Virus record (IMG/VR): IMGVR_UViG_3300025151_000023
Location: 1 to 64,000 of that record
Source: a virus
Reading direction: 5' to 3' (one strand)
DNA length: 64,000 nucleotides
This document shows positions 6,859 through 51,283 of this stretch, in pieces. Position numbers and translations under genes: made by a program. The notes below the pieces were generated by a model. That model saw only the letters and a program-made list of their open reading frames with translations, searched no databases and had not been told where the DNA came from. Positions within the stretch are counted from its first letter, which is position 1, and each line of letters starts with the position of its first letter.

Positions 6859-8014
6859 AGTGTATTACAGTGTAATTTTCGCTTTGATATTTGCGATACA
6901 GGTCTACTATAATAGCACGGTCATTGAAATAAAAGTTAGTGTAATCTATATCATGAGCCAACAGATACACATAGTCTTGTGTAGGTGATGGCGCACGATC
7001 ATAATGCACTGTTTGCCCCATTTCTTTACAATAGTAGCCTATCAACATAGAAGCAGACCCATCGGTAAGATCAGTATTTGGTTTGAATGATTTGCCCATG
7101 ATAACTATTTCTCTATTGTGTTTGCATAATTCTTTCGCAATATTTTTTGCTTGAATCTCGCGAGCTTCCATAATTGCTTTGAATAAATCATAACCTAGAT
7201 CTAATCGATCAGCTAACCACGATAAAGCAATGTTATCTCGAGGATGGCAAGGGCCACCATCTCCATTGCCTGGCTCCATATACTTTTGTGAAACTATCCT
7301 ATCAGCATGTCTTAACGAGTTTGCTATCACAGTTGGATTCGCATTGCCAATCTTTTGTGTAACATCTTGTATCATGTTAGCAAGGCCAACTTTTGCAGAT
7401 ATGTAAGTGTTATGAAATATTTTTATACACTCGGCTTCTTCGTATGTGCCACAAGTAATGTGAGGTTTGCTTTTCCATATTGGTTTATAAAATTCAAGCA
7501 ATTTTTTAGCACCAGTGTGAGAGTCTAACCAACCCTTACCATGTTGCCATTTGTGAAAACCCATAACCATAATGTCTGGATTCAAAAAGTCCAAACCAAC
7601 AGTTCCCATTGCTATCAAATATGGATTATAACAAAAGTTATTGTGTAAACCAAGTTTTGTTATCATTGGTCTAATAGTAGTTGGTAATACTGTTGAAATG
7701 TTTACAATTAGGGTATTTGGAGACATCCATTCTTTACAGTCTTTCAATACCTTCTGTAATGCACTGTAATCAAAGTCTTTAGATGGTAATTGAGTGGTTG
7801 GTTCTTCACCGCCGTATGCCGGATCGTGTGGAGTCGGCACAGCTATGAAAATTATGTCTTTATCAGCAAACGCACTGTACTTAGATTCAACAACATGTAC
7901 ACCAGGAATCTTTATGTTAAACTTTACATCATATCCTGTAACATCATGGTGCTTTGCCATTTCTTCAGCTACTGGACCACCTAGCTTACCAAGGCCTATC
8001 ATCGATATCTTCAT
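6845..8014 (-). CDS. UDP-glucose/GDP-mannose dehydrogenase family protein
   Basis: This 389-residue enzyme has the N-terminal NAD-binding GLGKLGG (residues 7-13), the central helix with K198 and N202 (IKIFHN), and the catalytic cysteine in GDGGPCHPRDN (C256). These match nucleotide-sugar dehydrogenases that oxidise UDP-glucose or UDP-HexNAc to the uronic acid. It is slightly shorter than the usual 420-450 residues. The substrate cannot be told from sequence. A uronic acid would fit the glycan island at 23738-40447, which contains an AsnB-like amidotransferase able in principle to amidate uronates. It forms an operon with the SGNH gene. Confidence 0.8.
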   Translation of the reverse strand: MKISMIGLGKLGGPVAEEMAKHHDVTGYDVKFNIKIPGVHVVESKYSAFADKDIIFIAVPTPHDPAYGGEEPTTQLPSKDFDYSALQKVLKDCKEWMSPNTLIVNISTVLPTTIRPMITKLGLHNNFCYNPYLIAMGTVGLDFLNPDIMVMGFHKWQHGKGWLDSHTGAKKLLEFYKPIWKSKPHITCGTYEEAECIKIFHNTYISAKVGLANMIQDVTQKIGNANPTVIANSLRHADRIVSQKYMEPGNGDGGPCHPRDNIALSWLADRLDLGYDLFKAIMEAREIQAKNIAKELCKHNREIVIMGKSFKPNTDLTDGSASMLIGYYCKEMGQTVHYDRAPSPTQDYVYLLAHDIDYTNFYFNDRAIIVDLYRKYQSENYTVIHYGIS

Positions 8015-9603: not shown

Positions 9604-11295
9604 ATGGAAGACTCAAAGGCTCTAGAACAAATAGACAAATTGACATCGCGTTTCACACGCACTTGCCCTTCAACACAACAATATCAACAACGTTTAGCAG
9701 AAGAATTTGAAATCATACTCTCGCTTAGGTTCACTGACTACTTTTGTCAAATCCGAGATATATTAGATTTAAGCACAGACATACCTCACATGACTCGAGG
9801 ATCTGCAGGTTCATCTTTGGTGTGTTATCTTATGGGCATCACAGATGTTGATCCCATCCAGTGGGACATTCCTGTGGCAAGATTTCTTAATCCAAAACGT
9901 GACGACTTACCAGATGTAGATATTGATTATCCTCATTACAAACAAGAAGAAGTGATGAACAGAATCTTTAAGAATTGGCCTGGCAAGTCTGCAAGAATAT
10001 CAAACTATGTTTTATATCAAGACAAGTCAGCAAAACGTGAAGCGGCAAAAAGACTAGGATACAAAGGAAGACTGCCCAAGAAGTTCTCGTACGAATCATT
10101 AGGCATCGATCCTAAAGAGGCAAAACGAATAGAAAGCAAATTGAAAGGCAAAAAGAAATGTATATCAAAACACTGTGGAGGCATCTTAATGTTTACAAGG
10201 CAATTACCAAAATCTTTAATATCACAAACAAATCAAATTCTACTAGACAAAAACGAAGTAGAGGATTTAGAACATTTGAAGGTGGACATATTAGCAAACA
10301 GAGGGCTAAGTCAACTGTTGGACATAGACTCGAAAACAAAGTTATACGAATATCCAGAGATAGACAAGGCTACTTCGTCTTTGTTGAGTCGGGGAGACGT
10401 GTTGGGAGTAACTCAAGGAGAGTCACCAGCGATGAGAAGATTGTTTAGAGCTATTCGTCCTCAGTCTATGAAAGATTGTGTATTTGCTACAGCATTGATT
10501 CGACCAGTGGCTTTGCAAGGCAGGCGTAAAGCGGCCTTCTTTAATGATTGGACATCTGACAGAGTATCAGATGTAGTAGTGTGTGAAGATGATGCTATTG
10601 TGCAGATTGCAAAGTTGATTGGGTGTGACTATTATGAAGCTGATATGTATCGCAGAGCATTTGCTAAGAAAAACGAAGAACGAGTAATGGAGTTTATGAC
10701 TAGACTAGGAGACCATCCACGCAAGGATGAAATATTTTCAACATTACAAGAATTAAGTGGCTTTGGTTTGTGCAGAGCTCATGCAGTAAATTTAGGAAGG
10801 CTAATTTGGGCATTAGCATATCAAAAAGCACACAACATAAAAGGTTTTTGGTCAGCGGCACTTAAACATTGTCATGGCTCTTATAAACGCTGGGTGTATA
10901 AAACTGAAGCTAAAAGAGCCGGATTAACACCGGTTACTGTTTCTAAGTCTGACTTGTTTGACGATCCTGTTTGGCAATATAAAAAATATGGTTGGTGGTC
11001 CAACTCAAAATTCTTACCAGGATTTTACACTCGACATTTATATCTTGATCGTATTGAGTTTGCTGGATTAGTTGCAAACGGTAGAGTTTATAAATCAGGA
11101 AATAAAAAGTATGTTACGTTTGTAACACTTGGTATTGATAATGGATACTACATTGATTTAAGCATTGACAAACCATTTCCATATACAGAATATGATGTAA
11201 TACGTGGGATTGGTAGGATTAAACATTTAAACAATTCTGATTATGTAGAAGTTATTGAGGCAGAGCCAATGAGAATAGATAAATTTTATGATTAG
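9604..11295 (+). CDS. Compact family-C DNA polymerase (DnaE-like catalytic core)
   Basis: This 563-residue protein matches the polymerase core of DNA polymerase III alpha: TRGSAGSSLVCYLMGITDVDP (residues 64-84) is the GS motif, LPDVDID (102-108) gives the first two catalytic aspartates (D104, D106), and LKVDIL supplies the third (D228). Further family blocks are KHCGGI (about 190), GVTQGES, RRAFAKKNEE and GFGLCRAHAVN. The C-terminus (FAGLVANGRVYKSGNKKYV) resembles the OB-fold. The PHP domain normally at the N-terminus and the tau-binding tail are absent; bacterial DnaE has about 1100 residues. T4-like phages normally use family-B gp43, so this is unusual. An intact triad suggests activity, but that is inference. 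Confidence 0.85.
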   Translation: MEDSKALEQIDKLTSRFTRTCPSTQQYQQRLAEEFEIILSLRFTDYFCQIRDILDLSTDIPHMTRGSAGSSLVCYLMGITDVDPIQWDIPVARFLNPKRDDLPDVDIDYPHYKQEEVMNRIFKNWPGKSARISNYVLYQDKSAKREAAKRLGYKGRLPKKFSYESLGIDPKEAKRIESKLKGKKKCISKHCGGILMFTRQLPKSLISQTNQILLDKNEVEDLEHLKVDILANRGLSQLLDIDSKTKLYEYPEIDKATSSLLSRGDVLGVTQGESPAMRRLFRAIRPQSMKDCVFATALIRPVALQGRRKAAFFNDWTSDRVSDVVVCEDDAIVQIAKLIGCDYYEADMYRRAFAKKNEERVMEFMTRLGDHPRKDEIFSTLQELSGFGLCRAHAVNLGRLIWALAYQKAHNIKGFWSAALKHCHGSYKRWVYKTEAKRAGLTPVTVSKSDLFDDPVWQYKKYGWWSNSKFLPGFYTRHLYLDRIEFAGLVANGRVYKSGNKKYVTFVTLGIDNGYYIDLSIDKPFPYTEYDVIRGIGRIKHLNNSDYVEVIEAEPMRIDKFYD

Positions 11296-12329
11296 GCTAA
11301 TTCGCCATAAATTAAAATACTAGTTCTAGGTTCATTACCTTCGTGGATAACACTGTGTGGGATATCAGCGGTGTTGACCATTAATGGATGTTCTAGAGGC
11401 AGTAGTCCGCTTCTGCCTAACTTAAACTGCACATCGTCGCTACCTTTTATAGCCCAATAAACTTTTTTACAACCTTTGATATAAGGGTAGCACTCTCTTT
11501 GTGTATGATCATCTCTGTGAATCATAAATCCATGTCCAGGTTTAAGTGTTTGTACAGAGATGTCTATCAATCTTTTATACCCTGAAGCAATCACTAAATC
11601 TTTTATTGATTGATATGGAATGTCGTCTATTTCAACAAATGGCAAATCCGACACACCATTCTTAAGTTGCTTAATTAACAATCCGTAGTCCTGTTCATCT
11701 GTTAATTTATTATTTCTCACTACACCGGAATCAAACCCCCATGGGCCTCCTGCCTTACAATAAGAATGATTTGTGCAAAACTTATCCAAATCTAATAGTA
11801 ATTGATCAACATCGATCTTTGGTAACTTCAACTTCAACCATGGTGCATCATCATGATTGTTTTTCCACCAGTGAGGCCCGTCACCATGATTAAAAAAACT
11901 TATCATCTTGTTATCCCAGCCTTCGTGAATCTTATGTGGCCGATTAACAGTTAACACATATTTTTCGAATAAGTTTTTTCCGTACTCACCGTTGTCTATT
12001 TCTTCATACAGTCGTTCTATCATCTGCCCTATGTCAGTGTGTATCCATATGCTAAAACAACAACCTTTATCCCATACTGCTGTTGCTGGTTGGTGTATTT
12101 GCCCTTGACCATCAGTGCAATACCCTGTATAGATAAATTGTCCTATGCTTGAGCCATTGATGCTTATATCTTCAATTTCTATACTTGTATCGACATATTC
12201 AACACACAGTTCGTACCATCCTGAATCTAATGGTTGGTCTTTGCCTAGTTTAATATTATGTTGTACATTAGACAAATCTTTTAGATAAACTTTTTCAATA
12301 ATATTGTTGCTTGTAATTGAAATAAGCAT
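11292..12329 (-). CDS. 2OG-oxygenase-like domain protein
   Basis: This 345-residue protein has two parts. The first 120 residues are beta-rich (TSNNIIEKVYLKDL, GYCTDGQGQIHQP). The C-terminal 130 residues carry GHGFMIHRDDHTQ, then IPHSVIHEGNEPRTSIL, which gives an HxD..H arrangement and a downstream arginine typical of Asp/Asn beta-hydroxylase-like or 2OG-Fe(II) oxygenases. It converges with the DnaE-like gene (4-base overlap) and lies next to the helicase. A substrate cannot be named; peptidyl or small-molecule hydroxylation are both possible. It could equally be a non-catalytic cupin fold. Confidence 0.5.
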   Translation of the reverse strand: MLISITSNNIIEKVYLKDLSNVQHNIKLGKDQPLDSGWYELCVEYVDTSIEIEDISINGSSIGQFIYTGYCTDGQGQIHQPATAVWDKGCCFSIWIHTDIGQMIERLYEEIDNGEYGKNLFEKYVLTVNRPHKIHEGWDNKMISFFNHGDGPHWWKNNHDDAPWLKLKLPKIDVDQLLLDLDKFCTNHSYCKAGGPWGFDSGVVRNNKLTDEQDYGLLIKQLKNGVSDLPFVEIDDIPYQSIKDLVIASGYKRLIDISVQTLKPGHGFMIHRDDHTQRECYPYIKGCKKVYWAIKGSDDVQFKLGRSGLLPLEHPLMVNTADIPHSVIHEGNEPRTSILIYGELA

Positions 12330-12331
12330 TA

Positions 12332-13738
12332 TTAATTTTTGTCTAAGTTTTGTATTAGCTGTTTTATTTTTGAACTTTCGATATCAGCTTTTACCTTACC
12401 AACATCATCACCTTGATATTTGTGATCCGGTTTGGCATCTTCAGTGACTGTTGAAGTTCTTTTTAGATTAGCGTATATAGATGGTGCTTGTTTTTTGAAA
12501 GATTGATATTCTTCGTCTTCGGCTAAATCTAATATTCGCAAAGTGTCAACATTAAATTCTAAATCAACTTTGTGACCAACGCCAGAACTAGATCTTGTTT
12601 TCATAAATTGTATTTGATACTTGCCACGTTCTCTCATTGCACGCGACGTAAAGATACCGATCACATTATCCGCAGTTTGTATTTTACTCAATCCACCACT
12701 AATGTGTGAATGATCAAATTCTATTTCTTCAACACTTGCTCTGTTCAATTGAGATGCTGTAATTAATATTGCATTTAGATCCACTGCTAAGTTTCTCAGT
12801 TCTTCTGATACATATTTGTCTTTTACAAACAAGTCACTTGGCGATACACGTTTGTTCATTGGCATCAGCAAGTCTAAGTAATCAATCAATACAACATCAC
12901 ATTTAATACTGTGCTGTATTTCAAATTCTTTAATGTAAGCTCTAACGTCAATAGCAGTAGCGCCACTTGGAATATATTTTATCCTAAATTGCCCTGCCTT
13001 TTTAGACTTCATCTTTACTTTAAGATCAACTGTGTCTAAATCTTTGTATATTTCCCTTGTTGGAGTTTCTGTCATCATTGCATCAATTCTCATCGCTGTA
13101 AGATTTTCACTTAACTCTAAAGTTATATACACACAGTTTAACCCTTGCTCTGCATAATTTACCGCTAAGTTTTGTAAAAACAAACTCTTACCTGCGCCAG
13201 AACCACCTGCAAAAATATTAAGTTCTCCTCTGTTAAAGCCACCAAACAGTTTTTTATCAAAGTTCTTCCAGCCAGTAGCAACAGTACCATTGTTGTCTTT
13301 CAGTGCTTGTAGTCTTGATTTTGGGTCTTCAAAATAGTCTGTACCCATGTCTTTTGTTAAGCCTACTTGAACAGCTCTTTTAATCTTTTCTTCAACTGAT
13401 CCATAATCACCTTTTTCTAACATATCAGCTGATGCTAATATTGCCATTTCTAATTCTTTGTGTCTTGCAAATCTTTCATATTCATCTAAGAACCAATCAA
13501 AATGTTTTGGATCAATGTCTGCGGCTGATTGTAATTCTGCACCTGTCTTTGCATTTACCATATCAACTTCAGGCAAAGTTTTATATTCTTGTGCATAATC
13601 ATATATGAACTTTGCCGCATCTCTTAAGTGTGCGTCATAGTGTCTGTACATGAAAATATTTTGTGCCCTAACAAATGATTCTGCATCTGCAAGGAACATT
13701 TCTAAAAATAGTTTTTGTAAGTCTTTTGTATATTCCAC
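12332..13738 (-). CDS. gp41: gp41-like replicative DNA helicase (DnaB family)
   Basis: This 468-residue RecA-fold helicase has Walker A GGSGAGKS at residues 178-185, CDVVLIDYLD (Walker B) at about 280-289, a glutamine-rich helix around ITASQLNRASVEE (motif 3), and an arginine-finger region near the C-terminus (FMKTRSSSG). The N-terminal 150 residues are helical, as in the DnaB/gp41 N-domain. gp41 unwinds DNA at the T4 fork as a hexamer and stimulates the gp61 primase. The primase gene lies directly upstream in the same strand and operon, as in other T4-like phages. The length matches the family. Confidence 0.9.
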   Translation of the reverse strand: MEYTKDLQKLFLEMFLADAESFVRAQNIFMYRHYDAHLRDAAKFIYDYAQEYKTLPEVDMVNAKTGAELQSAADIDPKHFDWFLDEYERFARHKELEMAILASADMLEKGDYGSVEEKIKRAVQVGLTKDMGTDYFEDPKSRLQALKDNNGTVATGWKNFDKKLFGGFNRGELNIFAGGSGAGKSLFLQNLAVNYAEQGLNCVYITLELSENLTAMRIDAMMTETPTREIYKDLDTVDLKVKMKSKKAGQFRIKYIPSGATAIDVRAYIKEFEIQHSIKCDVVLIDYLDLLMPMNKRVSPSDLFVKDKYVSEELRNLAVDLNAILITASQLNRASVEEIEFDHSHISGGLSKIQTADNVIGIFTSRAMRERGKYQIQFMKTRSSSGVGHKVDLEFNVDTLRILDLAEDEEYQSFKKQAPSIYANLKRTSTVTEDAKPDHKYQGDDVGKVKADIESSKIKQLIQNLDKN

Positions 13739-13774
13739 GTTTATATTATATAACCTTTCGATTGGTTTGTCTTG

Positions 13775-14737
13775 TTAAATCCATAATTTTTCATTCAACT
13801 TTATTTTTGTGTTTGTGTCATATGTGTATTTCAATATCGCTTGAAATGTTAATATTTTACCATATCGAATAACTGCGTTATTGATATCTTTGACACCATC
13901 GCTCCACGGTGGCATGGACACGCTCCATCCCCATTCACATGCTTGGTTAATTAATTTTGATCCTGCTTTGTCTCTGTCAGGCACTACAATTACTTTTCGA
14001 TTCAATGCATCTATTTGTAACTTTTGCTTATTGCTAATTTCACTACCTAAAATTGCAACGCCATCTATCATTATTGCATCAAACACACCTTCTGTTAATA
14101 TAACATATTTGCGTGACCAATGTTGTGCGTCCAAGTTGAATAAAGATCCGGGTTGGACATTGGCATAGTATTTAGGTTTGGTATCCTGTTGGATAGCTCT
14201 TGCTACATATCCTATTTTAATTTTGTTCCACACAATAGGCACTATTATTCTGTTTGGCATTTCTTTACTAGAGTAATAAAAATTATAGTCAGTTGGACTT
14301 ACGCCACGTGTGTTCAAATAAGAAATATATTCTGGTTCTGTTGTTATAGATTTTGCATCTTGTGGAAATGATGCAGGGCTAAAATTAATTTGTTCATCAG
14401 TGGGTTTTGTTGTTGGAGATATCTCTTGTGCTAGTTTCATAGATTTCATACTTAACTTGCCAATCTCACTGCTGGAAACATTGAGCCATGTTAACAGTTT
14501 TCTAAATCTTGTGTTTAGATATCTTCCAGGGCGATAGCTTGTTTTGAATCCACAGTTGAAGCAATGATATTGTATAGCACCATCTGGCTGATACATCATG
14601 CCGCCACGTTGTCTTGAGTCATTGGTTTCGCCGTTGTGATGACAGCAAGGGGCATCAAATGATATCCATCCCGACGGTGTTTTTTTCCTTCTGGCTGGCA
14701 AATGTGACTCTAATGTTTGTCTGAGCTCTGTAAACAT
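13775..14737 (-). CDS. gp61: gp61-like DNA primase
   Basis: This 320-residue primase has an N-terminal zinc site: CCHH (residues 31-34) and HCFNC (58-62). The Toprim domain shows VILTEGVFDAIMID (E216) and VVPDRDKAG (D254, D256), the metal-binding acidic residues. It makes RNA primers for lagging-strand synthesis and works with the gp41 helicase encoded just downstream. The zinc finger spacing and the Toprim order match T4 gp61 and DnaG. The gene starts 16 bases from the small DUF3307-like gene. Confidence 0.88.
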   Translation of the reverse strand: MFTELRQTLESHLPARRKKTPSGWISFDAPCCHHNGETNDSRQRGGMMYQPDGAIQYHCFNCGFKTSYRPGRYLNTRFRKLLTWLNVSSSEIGKLSMKSMKLAQEISPTTKPTDEQINFSPASFPQDAKSITTEPEYISYLNTRGVSPTDYNFYYSSKEMPNRIIVPIVWNKIKIGYVARAIQQDTKPKYYANVQPGSLFNLDAQHWSRKYVILTEGVFDAIMIDGVAILGSEISNKQKLQIDALNRKVIVVPDRDKAGSKLINQACEWGWSVSMPPWSDGVKDINNAVIRYGKILTFQAILKYTYDTNTKIKLNEKLWI

Positions 14738-14752
14738 TTAGTTTATTATAAA

Positions 14753-15166
14753 CTAAAAAAACAATTTGTCAAAGCACCAAACGTAAAAATAGTAACAAGT
14801 AAAATGCAATATTTGATCAATAGCAGATATGATCCAAAACTTTTGATCGATAATTCCAACGTTGGCTTTCTTTAATATATGACTTTTCCGCCAGTCAATT
14901 AATAAGTGTAACCAAAAATCCAAAAATGCAAACAATACAAAACCATAAAATATTTCATTAGTTACATCTGTAAAAATTTTTAAGTAGACACTTACAAGCA
15001 AAAAAACAACAGCAGTTCCTATGGCATGATCTAACGCATGTAAAGTACCATTGGGGTGCCAAAATTGTAATTTAGATTTTGGTGGATATTTTAAAGCAAA
15101 CCTGCCTTGTAAAGCTAAATCACAAATAGAATGCTTCACTAGTAGCAAAAAGAAAATTGGCGACAT
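14753..15166 (-). CDS. DUF3307-like membrane protein
   Basis: This 137-residue protein is nearly all hydrophobic segments (about four), starting FLLLVKHSICDLALQGRFAL and including HALDHAIGTAVVFLL and FLDFWLHLLIDW. The His/Asp positions in the membrane segments (KH..D..LQ and H...H) match the DUF3307 family, membrane proteins of unknown function that are common in marine bacteria and phages. It sits between the primase and a virion-like protein and overlaps the latter by one base. The function is unknown. Confidence 0.6.
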   Translation of the reverse strand: MSPIFFLLLVKHSICDLALQGRFALKYPPKSKLQFWHPNGTLHALDHAIGTAVVFLLVSVYLKIFTDVTNEIFYGFVLFAFLDFWLHLLIDWRKSHILKKANVGIIDQKFWIISAIDQILHFTCYYFYVWCFDKLFF

Positions 15167-15969
15167 TATGACCTGTATAATATTTTGTCTAGTCCTGCAA
15201 GTACAGTTGATGAATCATCTTGTGTTACAACAAAGGCTACACGTTTATGTATACCGGTAAAGTTAACTGGGTATCTTCCAGTAGCCGCACTATATTCTTG
15301 TCTATCTATCTGATAAAAGTCTGCTTGTTGTACTTCAGTTCCATATGATGCTCCGTCAGTCATTGTACCCATTATTTTAATTGAGCCTGTGAAGTTTGTC
15401 AAATAATATACTGCTGTGTGCAAAGCAGAATTTGAATTACGATTTGGTTTTGCATCCACCGAGCTAGATGAATGTTCGTCGCCTATAACATTGAACGAAG
15501 TAATAAGTTGTGATTCGATGAATTCTGGAGATGTGTCCCCAACAACTTCAAACTGTATAGCCGCATCATATCTAGTGTCTGCATATAATATTTTTACTGT
15601 GGAATCAGTATCAGTAAACTTCAGTACACCATGGTAAAATATTTGATCAAGTTTAAGCATGTCTGACTCAGTAAGTGTAAATTCAATGTGTCCTTTTGTT
15701 GTAGTAGTTGACCCATCATCGAGCACTGTGCCAACTTTAGTTAGAACTAAACTACCATTTTCGTCTGATATTTGTAAATCACAGCTTGTCCCGTCTACAA
15801 ATTGTTTCTTTTGATCTTGGTTTTTCACAACTACAGTAAACTTGTTGTCAAATTCTTTGTATAGTTTTATAGGTCGCTCGTACACTTTTTCATACCTTCT
15901 TTCAGTCCCAGATGTTTGTAATTGTACATCCAGTTGGTTTGTGAGATTATATCCAGTAATATATTGCAT
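15166..15969 (-). CDS. Probable virion protein (BppU/baseplate-like domain)
   Basis: This 267-residue, strand-rich protein has FTVVVKNQDQKKQFVDGTSCDLQI near residue 45, which resembles the immunoglobulin-like N-domain of phage upper-baseplate (BppU) or tail proteins. The rest contains repeated D/S/T-rich loops and no enzyme motif. A CATAAATA box (15982-15989) lies 12 bases upstream, as for other late genes here. Upper-baseplate or fibre attachment is likely, but no exact family member can be named. Confidence 0.5.
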   Translation of the reverse strand: MQYITGYNLTNQLDVQLQTSGTERRYEKVYERPIKLYKEFDNKFTVVVKNQDQKKQFVDGTSCDLQISDENGSLVLTKVGTVLDDGSTTTTKGHIEFTLTESDMLKLDQIFYHGVLKFTDTDSTVKILYADTRYDAAIQFEVVGDTSPEFIESQLITSFNVIGDEHSSSSVDAKPNRNSNSALHTAVYYLTNFTGSIKIMGTMTDGASYGTEVQQADFYQIDRQEYSAATGRYPVNFTGIHKRVAFVVTQDDSSTVLAGLDKILYRS

Positions 15970-15986
15970 GGCATTTACGTATATTT

Positions 15987-16409
15987 ATGAAACCTTTATT
16001 TTACTTCAGCTCTCCTGATGGTAATAACTACTATAAAATGACTGTGAAACTTGAAGAAATACAAAAAAACTACCCTTTCTTGTCTGTAATAAAAGTCGCT
16101 AACGAAGAACGAGTTGGCATAATACAGAACTGTGATCAACGTATTATAAGCATATACTGTTATGATTACATCCAAAAGCAATTACAACCATTGTTTTTAG
16201 AATATGGACGTGATTGGTGGTGGGAATCTAACAGAAAACTACCAGTCAACATGTTTATAGGTGATAAGTTTAAAGTATTTTCTAGTAGCTTAAGATCTTA
16301 TTCAATGAAGGAAACAGAAGTTGTTTTTGGGCCTATTACTAAGTTAAGTGATTTACTTAATGTCAAAAGACTAAGACGTAAAACAGTTCAGCTAATCAGA
16401 AAAGTTTAA
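15987..16409 (+). CDS. Hypothetical protein (140 aa)
   Basis: This 140-residue protein starts at ATG 15987, close to the divergent gene at 15969. It begins with a strand pair (KPLFYFSSPDGNNYYKMTVKL), then a helix, then a Trp-rich stretch (YGRDWWWES), and ends in a basic helix (NVKRLRRKTVQLIRKV). The basic tail suggests nucleic-acid contact. It converges with the small DnaE-like gene and overlaps it by 18 bases. No family is recognised. Confidence 0.45.
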   Translation: MKPLFYFSSPDGNNYYKMTVKLEEIQKNYPFLSVIKVANEERVGIIQNCDQRIISIYCYDYIQKQLQPLFLEYGRDWWWESNRKLPVNMFIGDKFKVFSSSLRSYSMKETEVVFGPITKLSDLLNVKRLRRKTVQLIRKV

Positions 16410-16955
16410 CAAGTTCATATGCACAACAACTGCCATTGCGTAAGACATGGCGTGTGCTTTTTTGAAATAATATTGTCCATCAGTAGGTTTTATCCATACT
16501 TCACTATGTATTTTGCTCCATTCACTATCAACCAAATATCTTTTGGCTGGACGTATGATAGCAAGACAACAAGCTATTTCTTCTACTGTTTTTGGTTGTA
16601 ACTTTGACACTACAGCAAAATGCCCATTTAAATGAAACAGTTGGTCAACAAAAGACTGATCATGCAATTTCTCCCATGGGGGATCTTTTGCTACCAGTTC
16701 TGCAAGATGTTTTCTAGTTTTAACTTGTGAGTAAATGCTGACGTTAAGCAAATCCAGTTTGAAGTATCCAAGTTGTTCAGCTACTTGATAATCAAGAGAA
16801 CATTGATTGTCATTTGGCATGGTTGGTGCTGTGGTAAAGTAAACGCCTGTGTTATGACTTTTGATTCCTTTTTTATCTATTATTGTTGCTCGTGTGTGAG
16901 GCAATGCATCAAGTATGTGTTGCCTATCTGCAAAATCTATATCAATATCAGGCAT
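16392..16955 (-). CDS. Very small DnaE-like protein (family-C polymerase fragment)
   Basis: This 187-residue protein begins MPDIDIDFADR, the catalytic motif of DNA polymerase III alpha (D3, D5). It then has HNTGVYF (the HAGGV block), GYFKLDLLN (D68, the third catalytic aspartate position), KLQPKTVEEIACCLAIIRPA (the LRP block) and FKKAHAMSYA (the FNKSHA block). All are in DnaE order but drastically shortened, and the upstream GS motif that closes the active site is missing. It may be a degenerate copy, a regulator or a partner of the 563-residue polymerase at 9604. It has its own promoter 7 bases before the ATG and no frameshift, so it looks like a maintained gene. Confidence 0.75.
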   Translation of the reverse strand: MPDIDIDFADRQHILDALPHTRATIIDKKGIKSHNTGVYFTTAPTMPNDNQCSLDYQVAEQLGYFKLDLLNVSIYSQVKTRKHLAELVAKDPPWEKLHDQSFVDQLFHLNGHFAVVSKLQPKTVEEIACCLAIIRPAKRYLVDSEWSKIHSEVWIKPTDGQYYFKKAHAMSYAMAVVVHMNLLNFSD

Positions 16956-16994: not shown

Positions 16995-18158
16995 TTAACC
17001 ATTTAGCTTTTTATATATCATCCACCAATCAGGACGAGTGTGCCATAAATTAACACCGCGTGTTTGCTTAAACCATTTTTCTCTTTGTAAAACTTCTTGT
17101 GCATATTTGGTTTTGAATTGGTTATATTTTATAGCATTTTTTATATTACGTGTATATTCTTTTTCCAATCTAGTATTGTTCAACATAAGTCCTAATTGTT
17201 TTTCTAATATTTCTACAGGCACATTATTTAGATCCCAACATGGGTTATCGCCAATTGGCATAAGAGTATAATAAGCTCTGCACTTATCGAATGTGTCATT
17301 TGTTTTTTGTATGAAGTCTGATAACAATGTACTTTGGTCTAAGTTAGCTAGTTGATGTACTATGTTTAAATTTAACGAGAATCCATATTTCCTATTCATA
17401 GAAAGATATTTGCAAATCTCTCTAAAGTTTTTTTCTGTAGTTGACCACTCTCCGTGATATCTAATTGCATTGTATCTATCACCTATTGCATCAATGCTTA
17501 AACCAATTATTATGTTTTCAAACTTTGCTATTTCTCTCCAAAATTTTTCATTGAAGATTGTTGCATTACTTGTTACTTGCACTTGTAATTTTCTTTTTCT
17601 ATCATCAGGTATTTGTTCTAACATTGCTTGGAAACCTCTTATCAATTGAGGTTCTCCACCTTGCAGTTGTAATTCTTGTAATGATTCTACATTTGCTAAT
17701 TGAACAAGTTTATTGATGTTTGTTTCTTCGTCTATCCAATTATAATTCTTGCCTTCTGTTTTAGATAGTTCCCATGGACGTTGCTCCATTTGTACTAAAG
17801 AAGACAGATCGGCATAACACATTCTACAAGCTAAGTTACACAATCGTCCACCAACTATGTGCAGTAATTTTAAGTTAGGTACATCTGGTGTATAATTTGC
17901 CCCGTTATCGTTTGTCCTTAAACTCCATTTACCTTTAGATTCGTTGACCCAACATACTGTACATCTGTTATCTGCATGTCCGCTGTTTAAGTTATCTCTT
18001 AGTTGTGTTTGTGTCGAGTTGTTGTAAAACCAATCGATTGGATCATCGATGTCTGAAAGTCTATCTTTTGCGTCTTTGATAAAACAACAAGGCGCTAGAT
18101 ATCCTTGTGAGCTTATGAATAAATGCTCCTGTGCTGGTTTACAAAAAGTATTGGACAC
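16995..18158 (-). CDS. Radical SAM protein with twitch/SPASM-like cysteines
   Basis: This 387-residue protein has the radical SAM motif CNLACRMC (C107, C111, C114), preceded by GYLAPCCF and followed by QGGEPQL (the GGEP block) and INATIF-type strands. Extra cysteines at positions 6, 24-25, 66 and 69 (CTVCW) suggest a second iron-sulfur cluster at the N-terminus, an unusual place for a SPASM/twitch site. Members modify proteins, RNA or small molecules, and marine phages carry relatives. Start GTG 18158 is used because AAGGA precedes it and it nearly overlaps the previous stop. It is the last gene of the bS21 operon (18762-16995). Confidence 0.8.
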   Translation of the reverse strand: MSNTFCKPAQEHLFISSQGYLAPCCFIKDAKDRLSDIDDPIDWFYNNSTQTQLRDNLNSGHADNRCTVCWVNESKGKWSLRTNDNGANYTPDVPNLKLLHIVGGRLCNLACRMCYADLSSLVQMEQRPWELSKTEGKNYNWIDEETNINKLVQLANVESLQELQLQGGEPQLIRGFQAMLEQIPDDRKRKLQVQVTSNATIFNEKFWREIAKFENIIIGLSIDAIGDRYNAIRYHGEWSTTEKNFREICKYLSMNRKYGFSLNLNIVHQLANLDQSTLLSDFIQKTNDTFDKCRAYYTLMPIGDNPCWDLNNVPVEILEKQLGLMLNNTRLEKEYTRNIKNAIKYNQFKTKYAQEVLQREKWFKQTRGVNLWHTRPDWWMIYKKLNG

Positions 18159-18159
18159 A

Positions 18160-18393
18160 TTATTCCTTTTTCTTTTTCTTCTTCCCCCAACTACCACGCT
18201 TAAATTTTTCTACAATTTCTCCCTCGCGATTTTCTCCTGGCGGATGCCATGTAACTTTATTGCCTCGTCTGTTAAGCCATTGGTCTATTGCTTGGTTTTC
18301 TAAATCTCTTGCTGAGTTAATTGCTTCAGTACTTTCTAAATTGTTTTGTAAAGGAACATGAATAGTATTCTTAGGTTTTTTATTCGTAGTCAT
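18160..18393 (-). CDS. Small basic hypothetical protein (77 aa)
   Basis: This 77-residue protein has AAGGAG before its ATG and ends in a very basic stretch (KFKRGSWGKKKKKKE). The middle has ARDLENQAIDQWLNRRGN, a possible helix. It lies between the 59-residue protein and the radical SAM gene, with an overlapping start and a 1-base gap to the next gene. The polybasic tail suggests binding to RNA or the ribosome, in line with the bS21 gene in the operon. This is inference. Confidence 0.5.
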   Translation of the reverse strand: MTTNKKPKNTIHVPLQNNLESTEAINSARDLENQAIDQWLNRRGNKVTWHPPGENREGEIVEKFKRGSWGKKKKKKE

Positions 18394-18796: not shown

Positions 18797-19471
18797 TCAT
18801 TCTATACCCGCTTCACGTAGTGTATTCTTCACAAAATCAAAATCTTCTTCTCTTTTGCGAAAAGCTCTTTTCCAATATTCTGGGTCTATCATTTCGAATA
18901 TTATTTTGATATGATCATCATGCATTGTTGATATCATGTCTTTTCCTGTGTGACAATTTAATAGTACCCACGGTGAAATTCTTCCGTTTGCAATCAATTG
19001 AGTAACTCTATTGAGGTTAACATATTTGAAAAAGTCTTCAAGTCTTGCATCTTCTTGCTCGGCCCATTCGCCCATTGTTATTACTGTTCTGTTAAGGGCT
19101 TGTGTAACTGCTTCAGTTCTCACTAACTGTTTTATGTATGTATCTACAGTTGCTTGTCTGGGCCAAAGATCAACTTTTATTTTTGAAGTGCATAACCAAT
19201 CAATAAATGCACCTATTTCAATGGGTGTATTTTCTGTTATAAATTTTGCTGTTTTTATGAATGCATTGTAGTATTGTGACTGTGTAAATTCTGTGTAAGT
19301 TTTGTGTTTCTGTGTTGGAAAATTTATTTCATAAAATCTTCTATAAATTTCGAACCCTAATACGTGAATTTTATTGTGTCTTTGTTCCCAACGCCTTTTT
19401 GGTTCGCACAAGTGTACTTGCAAAGTTTTTTCTCTGCTAAATGTTTTGTTGCAATATTCACATGTTGGCAT
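18797..19471 (-). CDS. C2H2-like zinc-finger protein (T4-like marine phage conserved)
   Basis: The product is 224 residues from the ATG at 19471 (the frame continues to 19498, but the finger begins at the internal start). The N-terminus MPTCEYCNKTFSREKTLQVH is a C2H2-type finger (C4, C7, then H20). The rest is a helical domain with no catalytic motif (ITMGEWAEQEDARLEDFF and similar). Proteins with this layout occur in marine T4-like phages and are conserved in a stretch containing replication genes; their role is unknown, possibly nucleic-acid binding. It lies just after bS21 and upstream of the gp62-like gene. Confidence 0.6.
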   Translation of the reverse strand: MPTCEYCNKTFSREKTLQVHLCEPKRRWEQRHNKIHVLGFEIYRRFYEINFPTQKHKTYTEFTQSQYYNAFIKTAKFITENTPIEIGAFIDWLCTSKIKVDLWPRQATVDTYIKQLVRTEAVTQALNRTVITMGEWAEQEDARLEDFFKYVNLNRVTQLIANGRISPWVLLNCHTGKDMISTMHDDHIKIIFEMIDPEYWKRAFRKREEDFDFVKNTLREAGIE

Positions 19472-19497
19472 TGTTTGTACTTGTACTGCTAGTTGCA

Positions 19498-19944
19498 CTA
19501 CACTATGCCGTGTTGTTTTTTTAGTTCTAAAAATTCCTTATTACTCATTGTTTTATCTAGTACGTCTAAATCTTTTTGTTTTGCTGTTGGAAATATTTCT
19601 TGTAGATCCTTCATTTTTGATTTTGTGGTTGTCTTTGCTTTTTTTGGATATATCCATTTGTGGAACAATACAAATGTACTGCCACACATTGCATTTAGTT
19701 TCCATAGCAGACCTTTGTGATTTTTACTTAAAGTCCACAAATGTTTGTTTAAGTTTTCGTTAGTTTCTTCCACATAAAATTCTTGCACTGCACGATCTTT
19801 GTGTTCAACTGATGCAGACCATTTTAGTGCCATGTAAGGTGAGTACAGTTTTTGTTCATCTTCAGTTAATTTGCTATACCATTTTTTATCACGATTATCA
19901 ACTGCTCTCATTAATCTTTTGATGTCTAAAAATTTAGCAACCAT
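19498..19944 (-). CDS. gp62-like clamp-loader small subunit (probable)
   Basis: This 148-residue protein has LYSPYMALKWSASVEHKDRA, then ETNENLNKHLWTLSKNH, then LFHKWIYPKKAK and a C-terminal helix with KQKDLDVLDKTMSNKEF. The order (SPFMVNRALS-like, AN.MN-like, KWxK and a C-terminal helix) resembles T4 gp62 and its marine relatives, which form the small subunit of the gp44/62 sliding-clamp loader. gp44 and gp45 are not visible in this window. The match is by motif order only, and the alternative is a marine-phage hypothetical. The start is ATG 19944. Confidence 0.45.
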   Translation of the reverse strand: MVAKFLDIKRLMRAVDNRDKKWYSKLTEDEQKLYSPYMALKWSASVEHKDRAVQEFYVEETNENLNKHLWTLSKNHKGLLWKLNAMCGSTFVLFHKWIYPKKAKTTTKSKMKDLQEIFPTAKQKDLDVLDKTMSNKEFLELKKQHGIV

Positions 19945-21285: not shown

Positions 21286-21306
21286 ATGTTTTAATTATAT
21301 TATGAT

Positions 21307-22761
21307 TTATGACTCATAGTCAACCTTTGTTACAGAAAAAGGATATTGAGCTTCACGATAAAACTTTTTACGTTCTGTAAGATGTCGTTTAGAAAACTTT
21401 GCAGTTGAGCACAAATCCCATACTTGTACAAAGTCTTTATCTTTTGCTTTACGAATACCTCTTCCTATGCTTTGTATTACTCTTACAAAAGATTTGCCTG
21501 GTTCTAGCAAAACCAAATTGAATATACGTGGCAAGTTTATGCCTACAGCCGCAACACCATAAGTAGCAATAATCACTTTATCTTTTTCGGTTTGTATTTC
21601 GTCATACGTTTCTTTTCTGTCATCTGATTTAGTTGCACCACTTACAAAAGTTGAATTTGGTATTGCTTCTTGTAACAACTCTCCTGATTTGACCCGATCC
21701 ACTAATATAAGAGTGTTGCCGCTTTTTACCATTTCTTGCACTAAACGCCCAATGTATTTTATTCTAGACGGTTTTGTAACCAAATGTGTTTGCTCTTCTC
21801 TGTAATTTTTGTATTCTACCCAATCAACCATTTGCATAATTTCAATTTGTAACTGTGCTAACAATCCTTTTTCTTGCAGTTCAACAGCAGATACTTTGTT
21901 AATAACATCACCTAACGAAACGTGTAATGATTTGAATTCATAATCTTTTTTAGGCACAGTGCCAGTTAGTCCCCAGCGTATTGGCACAAACCCATATACA
22001 TTTGTCAGCAGTCGTTTCAATACATCTGCCTTTGCCATGTGTACTTCATCTACAATTACACATATAACGTCACGTTTGAATTCTTCTATTAGATCATCCT
22101 CGCCATTTTGTCTTTTCTTCTCCAGTATGTTTAAAGATTGCCATGTTGCAATAGTATGTGTATGCCCTACTTCTTTTTTATCACCAAAGTATACACCAAC
22201 ATCTAAACCCATGTTTACATAATCTTCTAAAGTTTGTGTGACCAATGACTTGTTTGGTACAATAATAATACTTCTTCCATATGGTTCAATGAGTTTGCTC
22301 AACGCCGCAGTAATAATTGTTTTACCTGCCGCAGTGGCTACTTCCTGTAAGCACTGTGGATTATCTAAAAAATTATTAATTACTTCAACTTGATGTTCAC
22401 GTAATTGTATTGGTTCGCCTGCATTATTATGACCTTCTGGCCACTTTACATGTGCAAAGCTATCTGTTGTTACTTTGTCAAAATGTAATTCATAATGTTT
22501 TCTTTGATCAGCTAGATCAAATGTGTAGTTGTATTGTTCAAGTAATGGTATTATTTCATCTAGTAAATTCACATAAGTCAATCCACCTTGTGAAAAGAAA
22601 GATACAGTGCCATCCCATCTGCCTAGTCTAACTGCTGGCATAAAGCGTGCGCCTGGAATTTCATATTTGAATTTGTTTGTAAGTTTTCTTCTTGTGACTA
22701 GATCAAGTCCTTCTAGTTTTACGTTAACTTCGTCTTTGATTATTATATTACAGTGTGGCAC
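21307..22761 (-). CDS. uvsW: UvsW-like recombination helicase
   Basis: This 484-residue SF2 helicase has an N-terminal beta domain (residues 1-110, GARFMPAVRLGRWDGTVSFF), then the Q-like IQLREHQVE, Walker A VATAAGKT (141-148), DEVH (238-241), RWGLTGT, and in domain 2 GATKSDDRKE, ATYGVAAVGINLP and QSIGRGIRKA (motif VI). UvsW unwinds branched DNA and R-loops and ends origin-dependent replication in T4. The N-terminal domain and full motif order match. It is preceded by small genes including the 50-residue product at 22777. Confidence 0.92.
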   Translation of the reverse strand: MPHCNIIIKDEVNVKLEGLDLVTRRKLTNKFKYEIPGARFMPAVRLGRWDGTVSFFSQGGLTYVNLLDEIIPLLEQYNYTFDLADQRKHYELHFDKVTTDSFAHVKWPEGHNNAGEPIQLREHQVEVINNFLDNPQCLQEVATAAGKTIITAALSKLIEPYGRSIIIVPNKSLVTQTLEDYVNMGLDVGVYFGDKKEVGHTHTIATWQSLNILEKKRQNGEDDLIEEFKRDVICVIVDEVHMAKADVLKRLLTNVYGFVPIRWGLTGTVPKKDYEFKSLHVSLGDVINKVSAVELQEKGLLAQLQIEIMQMVDWVEYKNYREEQTHLVTKPSRIKYIGRLVQEMVKSGNTLILVDRVKSGELLQEAIPNSTFVSGATKSDDRKETYDEIQTEKDKVIIATYGVAAVGINLPRIFNLVLLEPGKSFVRVIQSIGRGIRKAKDKDFVQVWDLCSTAKFSKRHLTERKKFYREAQYPFSVTKVDYES

Positions 22762-22776
22762 AGTAGTAATATAGCA

Positions 22777-23257: not shown

Positions 23258-23361
23258 ATATTATACCTTTGTTTATAGTTTATACATTACATTATATGGT
23301 ATAACCGTAATTACGTCAACCACCAAAAAACCGCAATTTATAAGGATTTTTTGATATAGTA

Positions 23362-43885: not shown

Positions 43886-44139
43886 TAGTAATCTTCATAA
43901 CGTTCTTCACCATAACCATCACCATAATCCTCATATTCATCTTTGTCGTACTCTTTTAGTTCTTGAATAGCTTCATCTAGTTCCTCGTCATGGCCTAGTA
44001 ATTCATCTAGATCTTCTTCTATAAGCCCAGTGTTAGCAATTATATCAACAAACTTGTTTGCAACTATAGATTTATCTTTGGCAGGGACGTATGACTTAAT
44101 TAAGTTCCAAACATCAATTAACATTTGCGTCTCCGTCAT
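43885..44139 (-). CDS. Acidic hypothetical protein (84 aa)
   Basis: This 84-residue protein is very acidic at the end (YDKDEYEDYGDGYGEERYEDY). The first half is a helical TETQMLIDVWNLIKSYVPAKDKS segment. It lies between uvsX and the UvsY-like gene, overlapping UvsX at its start by 26 bases. An acidic tail can regulate SSB or recombinase contacts, but this is a guess. It is a conserved marine phage-type gene in this position. Confidence 0.5.
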   Translation of the reverse strand: MTETQMLIDVWNLIKSYVPAKDKSIVANKFVDIIANTGLIEEDLDELLGHDEELDEAIQELKEYDKDEYEDYGDGYGEERYEDY

Positions 44140-45199
44140 TTTCTTTTGTCTCTTCTAGTCCTTCTGGTTGTGTAACAACTTGGTTACTTACCTCTTGCAT
44201 TACAATTTTTAAATTTTCTGCTCCCCAGGCTTTTCTGTAATCAAGCAGTTCTTTACCATCTGCTGTTATATATTTCAAACGATTGCCTTGTTGTGTAATA
44301 AGGCCTTTTTTCTCAAATAAATCTAATAAGCCACTGTATGGATTCATGCCAGTTTCATAAGGAATTTTTACTTGCACACCTTCAAAAGGCTTTGCAAATC
44401 TTGTCTTCATAACCTTACACGCGGCTCTTATACCACGTACTTCACTTACTTTGTTGCCTGCTTCGTCCTCTTTAAGTTTAAGTTTTTTCATTGCAACAAC
44501 GATACTGGATGCATATATAAATCCTTGTCCACCTGATATCTTATCATCAGGATCAAACATGTCCTGTGATGCATAAGTGTGATTAGTTGCAACCATGCCT
44601 ACGTTAAATGAACCAAACATGTTTACACAGTTTCTAACAAGAGCTGTTAGTGCCTTAGGTTTTCTGCCTAAGTCGCCCTTCATATCACCCTTTTCGAATT
44701 GATCTACATCAGTAGGAGTCATCATCATGCCTAGCGAATCTAATACAAACAATACTTTTGGTCGATCTTGTGGATCTTTGTCGGTATAGTCTGCTTTATA
44801 TTCTTTCATAAAGTTTGATATTGTTTTAGCAACATCATCGATCATGCTCATACCTAGTCGTAAAAGTTTTTCTTCTGATGTATCAACACCAATGGCTTTT
44901 AACCATGCTTCATCTAATGCATTTTCAGAGTCAACTAGGATTACAAATATGCCTTGTTTTTGTGCTTCTCTTATAATGTTGCCCGAACAAATATAAGACT
45001 TGCCAGAACCAGACTCGCCTGCAAAGACTGTTACTTTGCCTAGCGGAATACCTTTATAAAAATCTCCCGAAATAAGATAGTTTAAGGCGTAGTTGCCAGT
45101 TGATATCCAGTCAGTTGGATCATTGAATCCTACTCCTAGCCCATCAATAGACTTTGTAATACTTTTTCTAAATTTTGTTACATCAAAAGGTTTAACCAT
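44114..45199 (-). CDS. uvsX: UvsX RecA-like recombinase
   Basis: This 361-residue recombinase has Walker A GESGSGKS (61-68), KVLFVLDSLGMMMT (Walker B), a DNA-binding L1/L2 region with GRKPKALTALVRNCVNMF and ATNHTYASQDMF, and an acidic C-terminus (EGLEETKENDGDANVN). It catalyses strand exchange in T4-type recombination-dependent replication. It sits next to uvsY and the gp32 gene. A consensus promoter lies upstream at 45221-45248 with TATAGGAGTC as RBS. Confidence 0.93.
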   Translation of the reverse strand: MVKPFDVTKFRKSITKSIDGLGVGFNDPTDWISTGNYALNYLISGDFYKGIPLGKVTVFAGESGSGKSYICSGNIIREAQKQGIFVILVDSENALDEAWLKAIGVDTSEEKLLRLGMSMIDDVAKTISNFMKEYKADYTDKDPQDRPKVLFVLDSLGMMMTPTDVDQFEKGDMKGDLGRKPKALTALVRNCVNMFGSFNVGMVATNHTYASQDMFDPDDKISGGQGFIYASSIVVAMKKLKLKEDEAGNKVSEVRGIRAACKVMKTRFAKPFEGVQVKIPYETGMNPYSGLLDLFEKKGLITQQGNRLKYITADGKELLDYRKAWGAENLKIVMQEVSNQVVTQPEGLEETKENDGDANVN

Positions 45200-48731: not shown

Positions 48732-49709
48732 TTATTCTATGCTGTGTTTTGATTTTTTACATATTGATAGTATCTTATTAGCTAAATTTTGTTCAAAATC
48801 ATCGTACAGTGTTCTCAGATGCCTTAATTTTGCTTGATTGTGTGCCAGTATTGTTTGTATGGCACTGTTATCAGCTGACTGGCTTAAAAAGTAATTTTTG
48901 AAGCTATTACAAGCTAATTGTATGCGTTTATTTGTGTTGGGTTCACTGTCGTATGACTCGTCAATATGTGGATGAAATGTTTTGAAGCCTAGCTGTCTTA
49001 ATTTTTTCAAATAATTTTGGCAACCGACCATTACAAATGGTATTCCTGCTCTTATAGGTTTAATTGTTTTTTCAGTGATAAAAAAGAAATCAGTTTCGGT
49101 TTCGGTTACTAATTCTATTTTACTACGTGAATATGCCGGAATCAAATCTGCATCTGCCCAATCGGTATTTGCACCTGTCTTTGTAAATTCCGCATGTTGA
49201 TGTTTGAAATAAGAATGTGGCACACTTTTCCTAAACATGTATTTGCTTAACTTATTGTAATTTGTGGATTCATCATACACAAAGTCGTTTGGATAATTGA
49301 ACATTTGCAAGTTTTCTAAAAGCCATTGCTCAACAACTTGCCTGTGAGGTCTGCTTTTTGACATCAAACAAGTCCAGTGTGTACCTTGTGCATTTGGTTG
49401 CAAAAAATCATCACCTAACCAAATAAATCTACTCCATGGTGAAGGAATGTGCCTGTTGTAGTTTAGATTTGTACCGTCGCCAATAATATAACAATCAGGG
49501 CTTTTTAGTAAGTGACTGACTCTACTGTTGTCTGTAGGTTGATGGACAATGTAAGTTACACCCTCGGTTTCATTGTTACGCATGTGCCAAAATATATTGG
49601 GCCAGCTGGCAACTATTACGTTGTATGGATTGGTTTCTGTGTTAAAATTTTTTATAAGGTCAGCGTCAATAAATCTACTGTTGAATTTATCACAACCAAC
49701 ACGAAACAT
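48732..49709 (-). CDS. GT10-like glycosyltransferase-type protein
   Basis: This 325-residue protein has DFFFITEKTIKPIRAGIPFVMVG, similar to the C-terminal motif of alpha-fucosyltransferases (GT10: TEKI..A...G.IPI), and YSRSKIELVTETE before it. The first half (PNIFWHMRNNETEGV) resembles the N-domain of exostosin-like enzymes. It lies between a virion gene and terminase, away from the glycan island, so it may glycosylate virion parts or be delivered with the late genes. The family is by motif only. Confidence 0.5.
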   Translation of the reverse strand: MFRVGCDKFNSRFIDADLIKNFNTETNPYNVIVASWPNIFWHMRNNETEGVTYIVHQPTDNSRVSHLLKSPDCYIIGDGTNLNYNRHIPSPWSRFIWLGDDFLQPNAQGTHWTCLMSKSRPHRQVVEQWLLENLQMFNYPNDFVYDESTNYNKLSKYMFRKSVPHSYFKHQHAEFTKTGANTDWADADLIPAYSRSKIELVTETETDFFFITEKTIKPIRAGIPFVMVGCQNYLKKLRQLGFKTFHPHIDESYDSEPNTNKRIQLACNSFKNYFLSQSADNSAIQTILAHNQAKLRHLRTLYDDFEQNLANKILSICKKSKHSIE

Positions 49710-51283
49710 TATGTGCTTGATATGAATATAGGCATAGGCATTGTCATTTCTGTATCAGAATCTCTTAGCCTTTCAAAGATTTTATCATCCCAAGTTGCTA
49801 CTGATACTGCCATTCTTACTACTAATAGTGTTGCCATCACAAGGTCATCATGTTCTCCTATTTTTGCACTAAAAGAATTGCCTGTTGCAACAAAATTTTT
49901 CAGTTCTGTAATTAAATTTTTAGATTTAACAGATAGACTGCCGCTCTCTAGCATCTGCTTAAATTTAGCACATGCGGCCATTTTTGAATTGTGTGTTGTG
50001 TTATAACCTTTGCGGAATCTACGCACATGTCCTTTTCTTACAGTTTCGCTCAATAAAACTCCAGGAATGTTTTCTTCGCCTATGTCAGCTATAGCTACTA
50101 AGCCAGCTTCACCTAGTGTGTTATTTTCAATTGAATAGTATATTTCATTTTGAACGCCAACTGTGTTAGCAATTTGTTCTAGTATTTGCTTTAGTATCCT
50201 AACTTGACCTTGTATAGGTGTTGCATTGTGTTGCCATTCGGCTACTTGTGTCATCTCTGGCATTTGATACACTTGTATCGCGGCATAGTCGCCACCAGTA
50301 CCCAGTGATGGATCTAATCCTACTAGATATGCTTTTCCTTTTTTAACAGTATCATACCATCGAACGTGACCATGTCTTTGCACCGGTTCAATACCTTCAA
50401 GTTCTGCCAGTTTGATTGGCTTAATTAAAGTTTCGTCGTAGATTAGAAATTCACAATCATGCTCACGTCTAAAACGTTCTTCGCCAATTCTTGCACGTTC
50501 TTCTTTTGCCCATTCTTCAGTTCTATCAGGATGTTCTCTCCACGAAGCATGAAAGGCCGCGAATCCATTTTTTCCTACTGGTAGTTCATTGCCATAGGCA
50601 TCTTGCTTTTTGTTTGCTTCTTTCCATATTAGTGCAAATTGGTCTTCGTCTGAGTTTGGTGTTGACGTAATTATACACTTACCGCCTGTTGCTAGTGTGG
50701 GTGCTAGTGAAGTCCAGAATTCTCTGGCTTTGGAAGGTGGATTTACAAATGCAAACTCGTCACAATATATTACAGAAAGTGACATACCTCTTCCTGTGTT
50801 TTCGGTAGTTGTAGTTGCTTTTATTCTTGAGCCATTGTCAAATTCTAATGTGTTTCTGTTGTATGAGTAGGCACCAGCACGTAAAAAATCTGGTAAGTTC
50901 TCATAAACAAATCTCACTCTGTTCATGATGTCTTGTGCACCAGTAAATTTATGAGCCGCAATTAGTATTTGTGAATCAGGCACAAACATAGCATACCAAA
51001 TCAAGTAAGCTGATGCACATGTAGTTTTACCTGTTTGCCTTGGCAACATTGCGATTGAGAAACGATTGCGATGATAAGTTTCTACCAAACCTTTTTGGTA
51101 TTTGAACATTTCAAATTTCATTGAGCCTTTAGTAGGATGTTGTATCATGCAATAGTTTTGCATGAAGTACAATGGTCCAGTTTTAGGATTGATACACTTG
51201 TTTAGCTCAATAATTTGCTGTTCAGTATATTTTACTTTTGTGTGAGCTTTTTTGGTGAGATTGCCTTGTAAACTTTGTGCCAT
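49709..51283 (-). CDS. gp17: Terminase large subunit (gp17)
   Basis: This 524-residue packaging motor has Walker A PRQTGKT (81-87), VIYCDEFAF (Walker B, about 171-179), a nuclease domain with LVGLDPSLGTGGDYAAI and a further metal-binding stretch with KIGEHDDLVMATLL. It cuts concatemer DNA and pumps it into the prohead, working with gp16. A TGTAAATA late box ends five bases before the ATG at 51283. It is a full-length gp17 of the marine T4 type. Confidence 0.92.
   Translation of the reverse strand: MAQSLQGNLTKKAHTKVKYTEQQIIELNKCINPKTGPLYFMQNYCMIQHPTKGSMKFEMFKYQKGLVETYHRNRFSIAMLPRQTGKTTCASAYLIWYAMFVPDSQILIAAHKFTGAQDIMNRVRFVYENLPDFLRAGAYSYNRNTLEFDNGSRIKATTTTENTGRGMSLSVIYCDEFAFVNPPSKAREFWTSLAPTLATGGKCIITSTPNSDEDQFALIWKEANKKQDAYGNELPVGKNGFAAFHASWREHPDRTEEWAKEERARIGEERFRREHDCEFLIYDETLIKPIKLAELEGIEPVQRHGHVRWYDTVKKGKAYLVGLDPSLGTGGDYAAIQVYQMPEMTQVAEWQHNATPIQGQVRILKQILEQIANTVGVQNEIYYSIENNTLGEAGLVAIADIGEENIPGVLLSETVRKGHVRRFRKGYNTTHNSKMAACAKFKQMLESGSLSVKSKNLITELKNFVATGNSFSAKIGEHDDLVMATLLVVRMAVSVATWDDKIFERLRDSDTEMTMPMPIFISST

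Follow-up and report, generated by a model that had tools for sequence, protein, structure and literature searches.

A Predicted Split DNA Polymerase III Alpha and a Separate One-Piece Family-C Polymerase in a T4-Like Jumbo Phage Fragment

Two Family-C Polymerase Genes in One Phage Fragment

The window analyzed here is the first 64 kb of the 85,742-bp IMG/VR record IMGVR_UViG_3300025151_000023, itself a marine fragment, and the gene block it carries (terminase, UvsX, UvsW, primase, and gp41-type helicase) is of the T4-like jumbo phage type. Two intact open reading frames (ORFs) on opposite strands, encoding proteins of 563 and 187 amino acids (aa), are the subject of this study (Table 1). Both had been taken for relatives of the family-C (DnaE-type) polymerases in an earlier sequence-only reading of the window, and profile searches bear this out. 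The 563-aa protein matched the palm and finger domain families PF07733 (9.5e-41) and PF17657 (2.5e-15), while the 187-aa protein matched phrog_11778 (“DNA polymerase”) over its full length (E = 4.6e-61, profile positions 8–192 of 197) and, more weakly, phrog_405 (E = 1.4e-5), with no match in a Pfam search. Both genes are real and conserved, and both are under purifying selection (median ratios of nonsynonymous to synonymous substitution, dN/dS, of 0.10 and 0.06), although near-saturation of synonymous sites left only 15 usable pairs for the smaller gene's value.

The explanation that we favor, and consider probable when taken as a whole, is that the product of the 187-aa gene is the C-terminal catalytic subunit of a two-gene minimal DNA polymerase III (Pol III) alpha, that the 563-aa gene encodes a separate polymerase able to build an active site alone, and that both enzymes are accessory. 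The C-terminal subunit and its N-terminal counterpart are referred to below as the C-half and the N-half.

Table 1. Coordinates of the two polymerase genes, their motifs, and neighboring genes in the window.
Feature	Position	Strand	Basis
563-aa unsplit family-C polymerase without PHP domain (thumb remnant, palm, fingers, predicted C-terminal beta-rich tail)	9604..11295	+	
GS motif RGSAGSS, residues 65–71 of the 563-aa protein, nearly invariant in relatives	9796..9816	+	
Catalytic aspartates D104 and D106 (563-aa protein), counterparts of E. coli D401/D403 in the alignment	9913..9921	+	
Catalytic aspartate D228 (HLKVD) in the 563-aa protein, counterpart of E. coli D555 in the alignment	10285..10287	+	
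187-aa predicted C-terminal subunit of split minimal Pol III alpha (C-terminal part of palm with catalytic aspartates, reduced fingers; phrog_11778)	16392..16955	−	
PDIDIDF, codons 2–8 of the 187-aa gene; D3/D5 align with E. coli DnaE D401/D403	16932..16952	−	sequence and alignment
Third catalytic aspartate, codon 68 of the 187-aa gene (FKLD), aligned with E. coli D555	16752..16754	−	
140-aa phrog_11637 protein, convergent with the C-half gene, 3′ ends overlapping	15987..16409	+	
DnaB-like replicative helicase (gp41-like, phrog_19)	12332..13738	−	phrog match
DnaG-type primase (gp61-like, phrog_47)	13775..14737	−	phrog match
UvsW-type helicase, upstream in the same replication block	21307..22761	−	
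UvsX-like recombinase	44114..45199	−	
Terminase large subunit	49709..51283	−	

The 187-aa Protein Is a Probable Half of a Predicted Split Pol III Alpha

The 187-aa sequence starts directly at the catalytic strand (MPDIDIDF), without a GS motif, and, aligned with E. coli alpha, it lacks the thumb and most of the fingers. The AlphaFold (AF2) model of the protein alone was confident (predicted local distance difference test, pLDDT, 92.2; predicted template modeling score, pTM, 0.74), and VIA-align superimposed 183–186 of its 187 residues on 3e0d (Z 9.7) and on E. coli 2hnh (Z 9.0). Full-length matches were to Pol III alpha or PolC only, which made up all 15 of the best fold-comparison entries (Z 6.3–9.7, 157–186 residues), the next unrelated entry having a Z of 3.6. 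Model residue 1 pairs with E. coli residue 399, and the model runs end to end on E. coli alpha 399–779. This link to solved structures is visible only by fold comparison; a phmmer search of PDB sequences returned no match up to E = 10. We conclude that the 187-aa protein is homologous to E. coli alpha ∼399–779 minus the thumb and most of the fingers.

A single IMG/VR scan recovered at least 564 relatives of the 187-aa protein, which also matched 90 phage records, including Phosso, PA5oct-like phages, Atu_ph07, RaK2, GAP32, and SCTP-2. Across 98 C-half sequences, D3, D5, D68, and K66 are identical wherever present, and G37, H34, R135-P136, F164, and H168 show little or no variation, forming the motifs H34..G37, RP (135–136), and FKKxH (164–168). 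The three acidic positions and the missing GS motif had thus been read correctly from the sequence. From the alignment and general knowledge of E. coli alpha, we take D3, D5, and D68 to be the equivalents of D401, D403, and D555; they are invariant in relatives down to ∼37% identity. That the 187-aa frame might be a random fragment with no homologues in related phages, as considered in the earlier reading, or a decayed one, is ruled out by this spread, conservation, and selection.

A PF07733 search of complete jumbo phage genomes gave a single short match per genome, distant from the C-half gene. These matches are ∼170-aa proteins (phrog_11127) that carry a GS motif and stop at ..LDI.EFLK; at the corresponding point E. 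coli alpha reads ..FERFLNPERV and then MPDFDVDF, where the C-half begins with MPDIDIDF. The cut falls at one place in all 18 genomes with both halves, the N-half ending in ..EFLK and the C-half starting at ∼DIDID, and the N-halves from IMG/VR end in ..EFL[KR]. Exactly one N-half and one C-half were present in each of the seven isolate genomes tested, and of 22 contigs with an N-half, 11 also had the C-half, among them six of the seven longer than 250 kb. The N-half matched 90 phage records, with a host tally nearly equal to that of the C-half. Pairwise distances of the two halves correlate (r = 0.65, equaled in 0 of 2000 permutations), a correlation that shared ancestry alone could give. The division does not resemble that of a split intein, since nothing follows EFLK at the end of the N-half; the intein-bearing split PolB of MIJ3 is another gene.

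A two-gene arrangement of this kind has been predicted. In a computational description of group 2.2 jumbo phages, a minimal Pol III alpha was proposed to be encoded by two distant genes alongside PolB, with an NTP-binding (nucleoside triphosphate-binding) N-part and a Mg/template-binding C-part (Iyer et al., 2021; PMC7824862). The 187-aa protein of the window is a member of this split family, namely its C-subunit. The earlier suggestion that it is a subunit in need of completion therefore stands in part: the predicted partner is the GS-motif protein phrog_11127, encoded elsewhere in the genomes of relatives, rather than the 563-aa protein, which has no deficit that the small one fills.

A role as non-catalytic relic or replisome regulator is very unlikely for the 187-aa protein. 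The absence of a thumb, most of the fingers, and a GS motif of its own speaks for such a role, but in a relic the acidic residues should be the first to go, and these are retained under purifying selection in a gene that constantly co-occurs with an equally conserved GS subunit. The regulatory role put forward in the sequence-only reading is likewise disfavored, since not only the catalytic motifs but also those for template and deoxynucleoside triphosphate binding are invariant.

The 563-aa Protein Is a Second, Unsplit Family-C Polymerase

The larger protein carries the GS motif, the three catalytic aspartates, and the later family-C motifs. Its match to phrog_405 covers the profile only from position 350 of 1190 onward, so that the protein starts inside the polymerase part, and neither the Pfam nor the phrog search found a PHP domain; alignments and searches thus agree with the earlier description of a PHP-less protein retaining D104, D106, and D228. 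Only about 80 residues follow the palm and finger part; searches gave this tail no family match that would point to a tau-binding C-terminal domain, and the structure model is poor there. At the very C-terminus (11266–11295, +) lies a peptide of I-D-K-F-Y type, whose hydrophobic-x-x-aromatic pattern is kept in relatives and which, as judged from its sequence, resembles a clamp-binding tail.

Relatives of the 563-aa protein were found at 33 loci, most of them ∼90% identical and three at 65%, and shorter relatives in a large marine clade (clade B, below) are ∼70% identical. The best relative in a named phage, from the uncultured 484-kb phage LR756508, is 37.7% identical over its full length. No close relative turned up when bacterial genomes were scanned with the protein. 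In a tree of family-C polymerases the large proteins group with LR756508 (support 99.9/99), while all split enzymes form another clade (100/100) that is not its sister; grouping of the large proteins with DnaE2 lacked support in this tree, which sampled only one DnaE2. The 563-aa protein is therefore a second, independent, unsplit, PHP-less family-C polymerase.

Alternatively, the split enzyme might derive from an unsplit ancestor represented by the 563-aa enzyme, or its two halves might have fused again to give the latter. Both enzymes lack a PHP domain and have shortened fingers, and LR756508 has the unsplit form only, with no separate halves. We nevertheless consider this alternative unlikely: the large and split enzymes share only 18–21% identity over common palm columns, and their clades are each supported at 99 or above without being sisters, although the split branch is very long and attraction artefacts are possible.

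The N-Half in the Window's Lineage

No N-half was found in the 85.7-kb record, nor in the contigs of relatives that carry the large gene, including one of 107.9 kb, all of these being fragments. In a tree of C-halves, the loci with a large gene nearby all fall in two marine clades, the window's own clade A and the large clade B, and genomes known to hold an N-half all lie outside these two clades. This pattern would fit replacement of the N-half by the large gene, a possibility that we examined and do not favor: the records from both clades are incomplete and do not contain the genes that usually flank the N-half either, and clade B is linked by synteny to contigs with an N-half. One such bridge joins G034, which has the N-half, to G001, which has the C-half, through colinear structural genes, many of them 72–81% identical; in a second, colinearity connects the right end of G002 (C-half) to G051, where the N-half is reached after a further ∼40 kb. 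This synteny suggests that the N-half of the window's phage is merely missing from the assembly; for clade A its presence is an expectation. Because the clade B linked to N-half contigs includes members with the large gene, that gene looks like an addition beside the split enzyme and not a substitute for the N-half.

The same data bear on the view that the N-half has been lost in the window's clade, leaving the 187-aa C-half to serve the 563-aa protein in trans, as a partner or as a regulator. The absence of an N-half from the record and from the large-gene contigs, its restriction in the tree to genomes outside the two clades, and the proximity of the two genes, about 5–9 kb apart, are all in its favor. 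It is nonetheless improbable in our estimate, given the fragmentary records and the clade B synteny described above; moreover, with a GS motif and aspartates of its own, the 563-aa enzyme leaves no gap for a C-half, and most C-half relatives have no large gene in their flanks.

Several observations weigh against the favored explanation of a split enzyme with an unseen N-half and a self-sufficient 563-aa polymerase. A window-type C-half and an N-half occur together in no single record, and a search for both halves on one marine contig of the window's clades found a C-half in 0 of 23 N-half contigs. The marine N-half groups are placed too weakly in trees for one of them to be assigned to the window's clade. 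The 359-kb contig IMGVR_UViG_3300035698_035310 (G033, L230) departs from the co-occurrence, with an N-half and no detected C-half. The AlphaFold model of the 563-aa protein (pLDDT 58) was too poor for use, and Foldseek TM-scores (template modeling scores) of the 187-aa model were low (0.36–0.49, by query), the latter because the thumb and fingers are cut out relative to the targets. Finally, the papers we found report no activity data for any member.

Gene Neighborhood

Among seven annotated relatives (RaK2, GAP32, Cassandra, Phosso, Atu_ph07, SCTP-2, and Vibrio 2.275.O), all have a small opposite-strand ORF at the position of the phrog_11637 ORF; it adjoins the C-half and is followed by structural or hypothetical genes and then by primase and helicase, an order shared by the window. 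This recurrence suggests that the phrog_11637 ORF and the C-half gene are a constrained pair, the small ORF serving in antisense control or as a partner. The promoter earlier assigned to the C-half gene (TTTACA-17-TATACT) does not rise above chance, the region containing 28 promoter-like sites against 34 expected.

Immediately upstream of the C-half gene lies a gene for a Radical SAM protein with a SPASM-like stretch (16995–18197, −), followed by a conserved phage family, phrog_11058, with a C2H2 zinc finger at its N-terminus (18797–19498, −). A sugar- or lipopolysaccharide-type cluster (19953–33356, −) sits within the replication region and includes a KdsA/DAHP-synthase-like aldolase (19953–20759), glycosyltransferases, an FkbM methyltransferase, a nucleotide-sugar epimerase, and an aminotransferase. 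A UDP-glucose dehydrogenase-like protein (phrog_9148) is encoded at 6845–8014 (−).

The absence of the usual T4-type polymerase gp43 from the window, pointed out earlier, extends to the whole fragmentary 85,742-bp record, in which no PolB match was found; PolB was present in all five complete jumbo phage genomes tested.

Proposed Roles of the Two Enzymes

In the arrangement that we propose, the N-subunit, encoded in a part of the genome outside the 85.7-kb record, would assemble with the C-subunit into one palm and active site, and both family-C enzymes would act as accessory, non-proofreading polymerases beside a gp43-type PolB replicase. Because it has no PHP domain, thumb, or clamp-binding tail, the split enzyme should be distributive and non-proofreading, properties that fit primer extension or the filling of short gaps better than bulk replication. 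Its most likely site of action would be the gp41/gp61 primosome, given that the genes for these proteins sit beside the C-half throughout the family. In Gram-positive bacteria DnaE extends primers before PolC takes over, and the adjacency to gp61 and gp41 suggests that a comparable hand-off to gp43 may occur. For the one-piece enzyme, gap filling or lesion bypass would be the most likely task. We hold these assignments tentatively: primer extension is a possible role, at somewhat less than an even chance, and we would put repair or bypass at the same level.

A more speculative scenario is a lineage that uses three replicative-type polymerases simultaneously (the gp43 PolB, the two-gene minimal Pol III alpha, and the one-piece PHP-less family-C enzyme) in which the C-half and the one-piece enzyme share a partner or succeed each other; in its strongest form the N-half would have been lost and the C-half become a subunit of the one-piece enzyme. 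We regard this as rather unlikely.

Comparison With Known Systems and Significance

The window resembles the predicted split Pol III alpha systems of group 2.2 jumbo phages (RaK2, GAP32, 121Q, PA5oct-like phages, and Atu_ph07) in protein family, catalytic-strand start, catalytic triad, and gene order with uvsW, primase, and helicase, the company of PolB being seen in the complete genomes. It differs in adding an unsplit PHP-less family-C polymerase, and in that no N-subunit was found in its fragment. The counterpart of the 563-aa enzyme in LR756508 is likewise unsplit (∼575 aa) and PHP-less, and PolB is present in the same genome; it differs in that a search of that genome found neither a separate C-half nor an N-half. 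Bacterial DnaE/Pol III alpha and the PHP-bearing phage DnaE proteins (e.g., Streptomyces phage Nabi and Cronobacter phage Ss1) share with the 563-aa protein the palm, GS motif, aspartates, and finger motifs in the same order. Those proteins are about 930–1160 residues long, with a PHP domain and longer C-terminal parts, whereas in the 563-aa protein little precedes the palm and a short, predicted beta-rich tail closes the sequence.

The split enzyme was thus already predicted in the literature, and what is new is its pairing with a one-piece PHP-less enzyme in the same genomes. Our analysis extends the earlier description by locating the cut exactly and showing it to be universal, by recognizing that thumb and fingers are deleted, and by establishing the structural match and the marine breadth of the family.

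If the two halves assemble, the product would be a family-C polymerase of ∼360 residues in total, a third the size of E. coli alpha, lacking the thumb and retaining few fingers, and would define a minimum for bacterial-type DNA synthesis. The split enzyme is widespread, occurring in hundreds of marine phages and in common jumbo phages of E. coli, Klebsiella, and Pseudomonas. The phages that also carry the one-piece mini-DnaE allow the question to be asked of why a phage with a PolB needs one or even two extra family-C enzymes.

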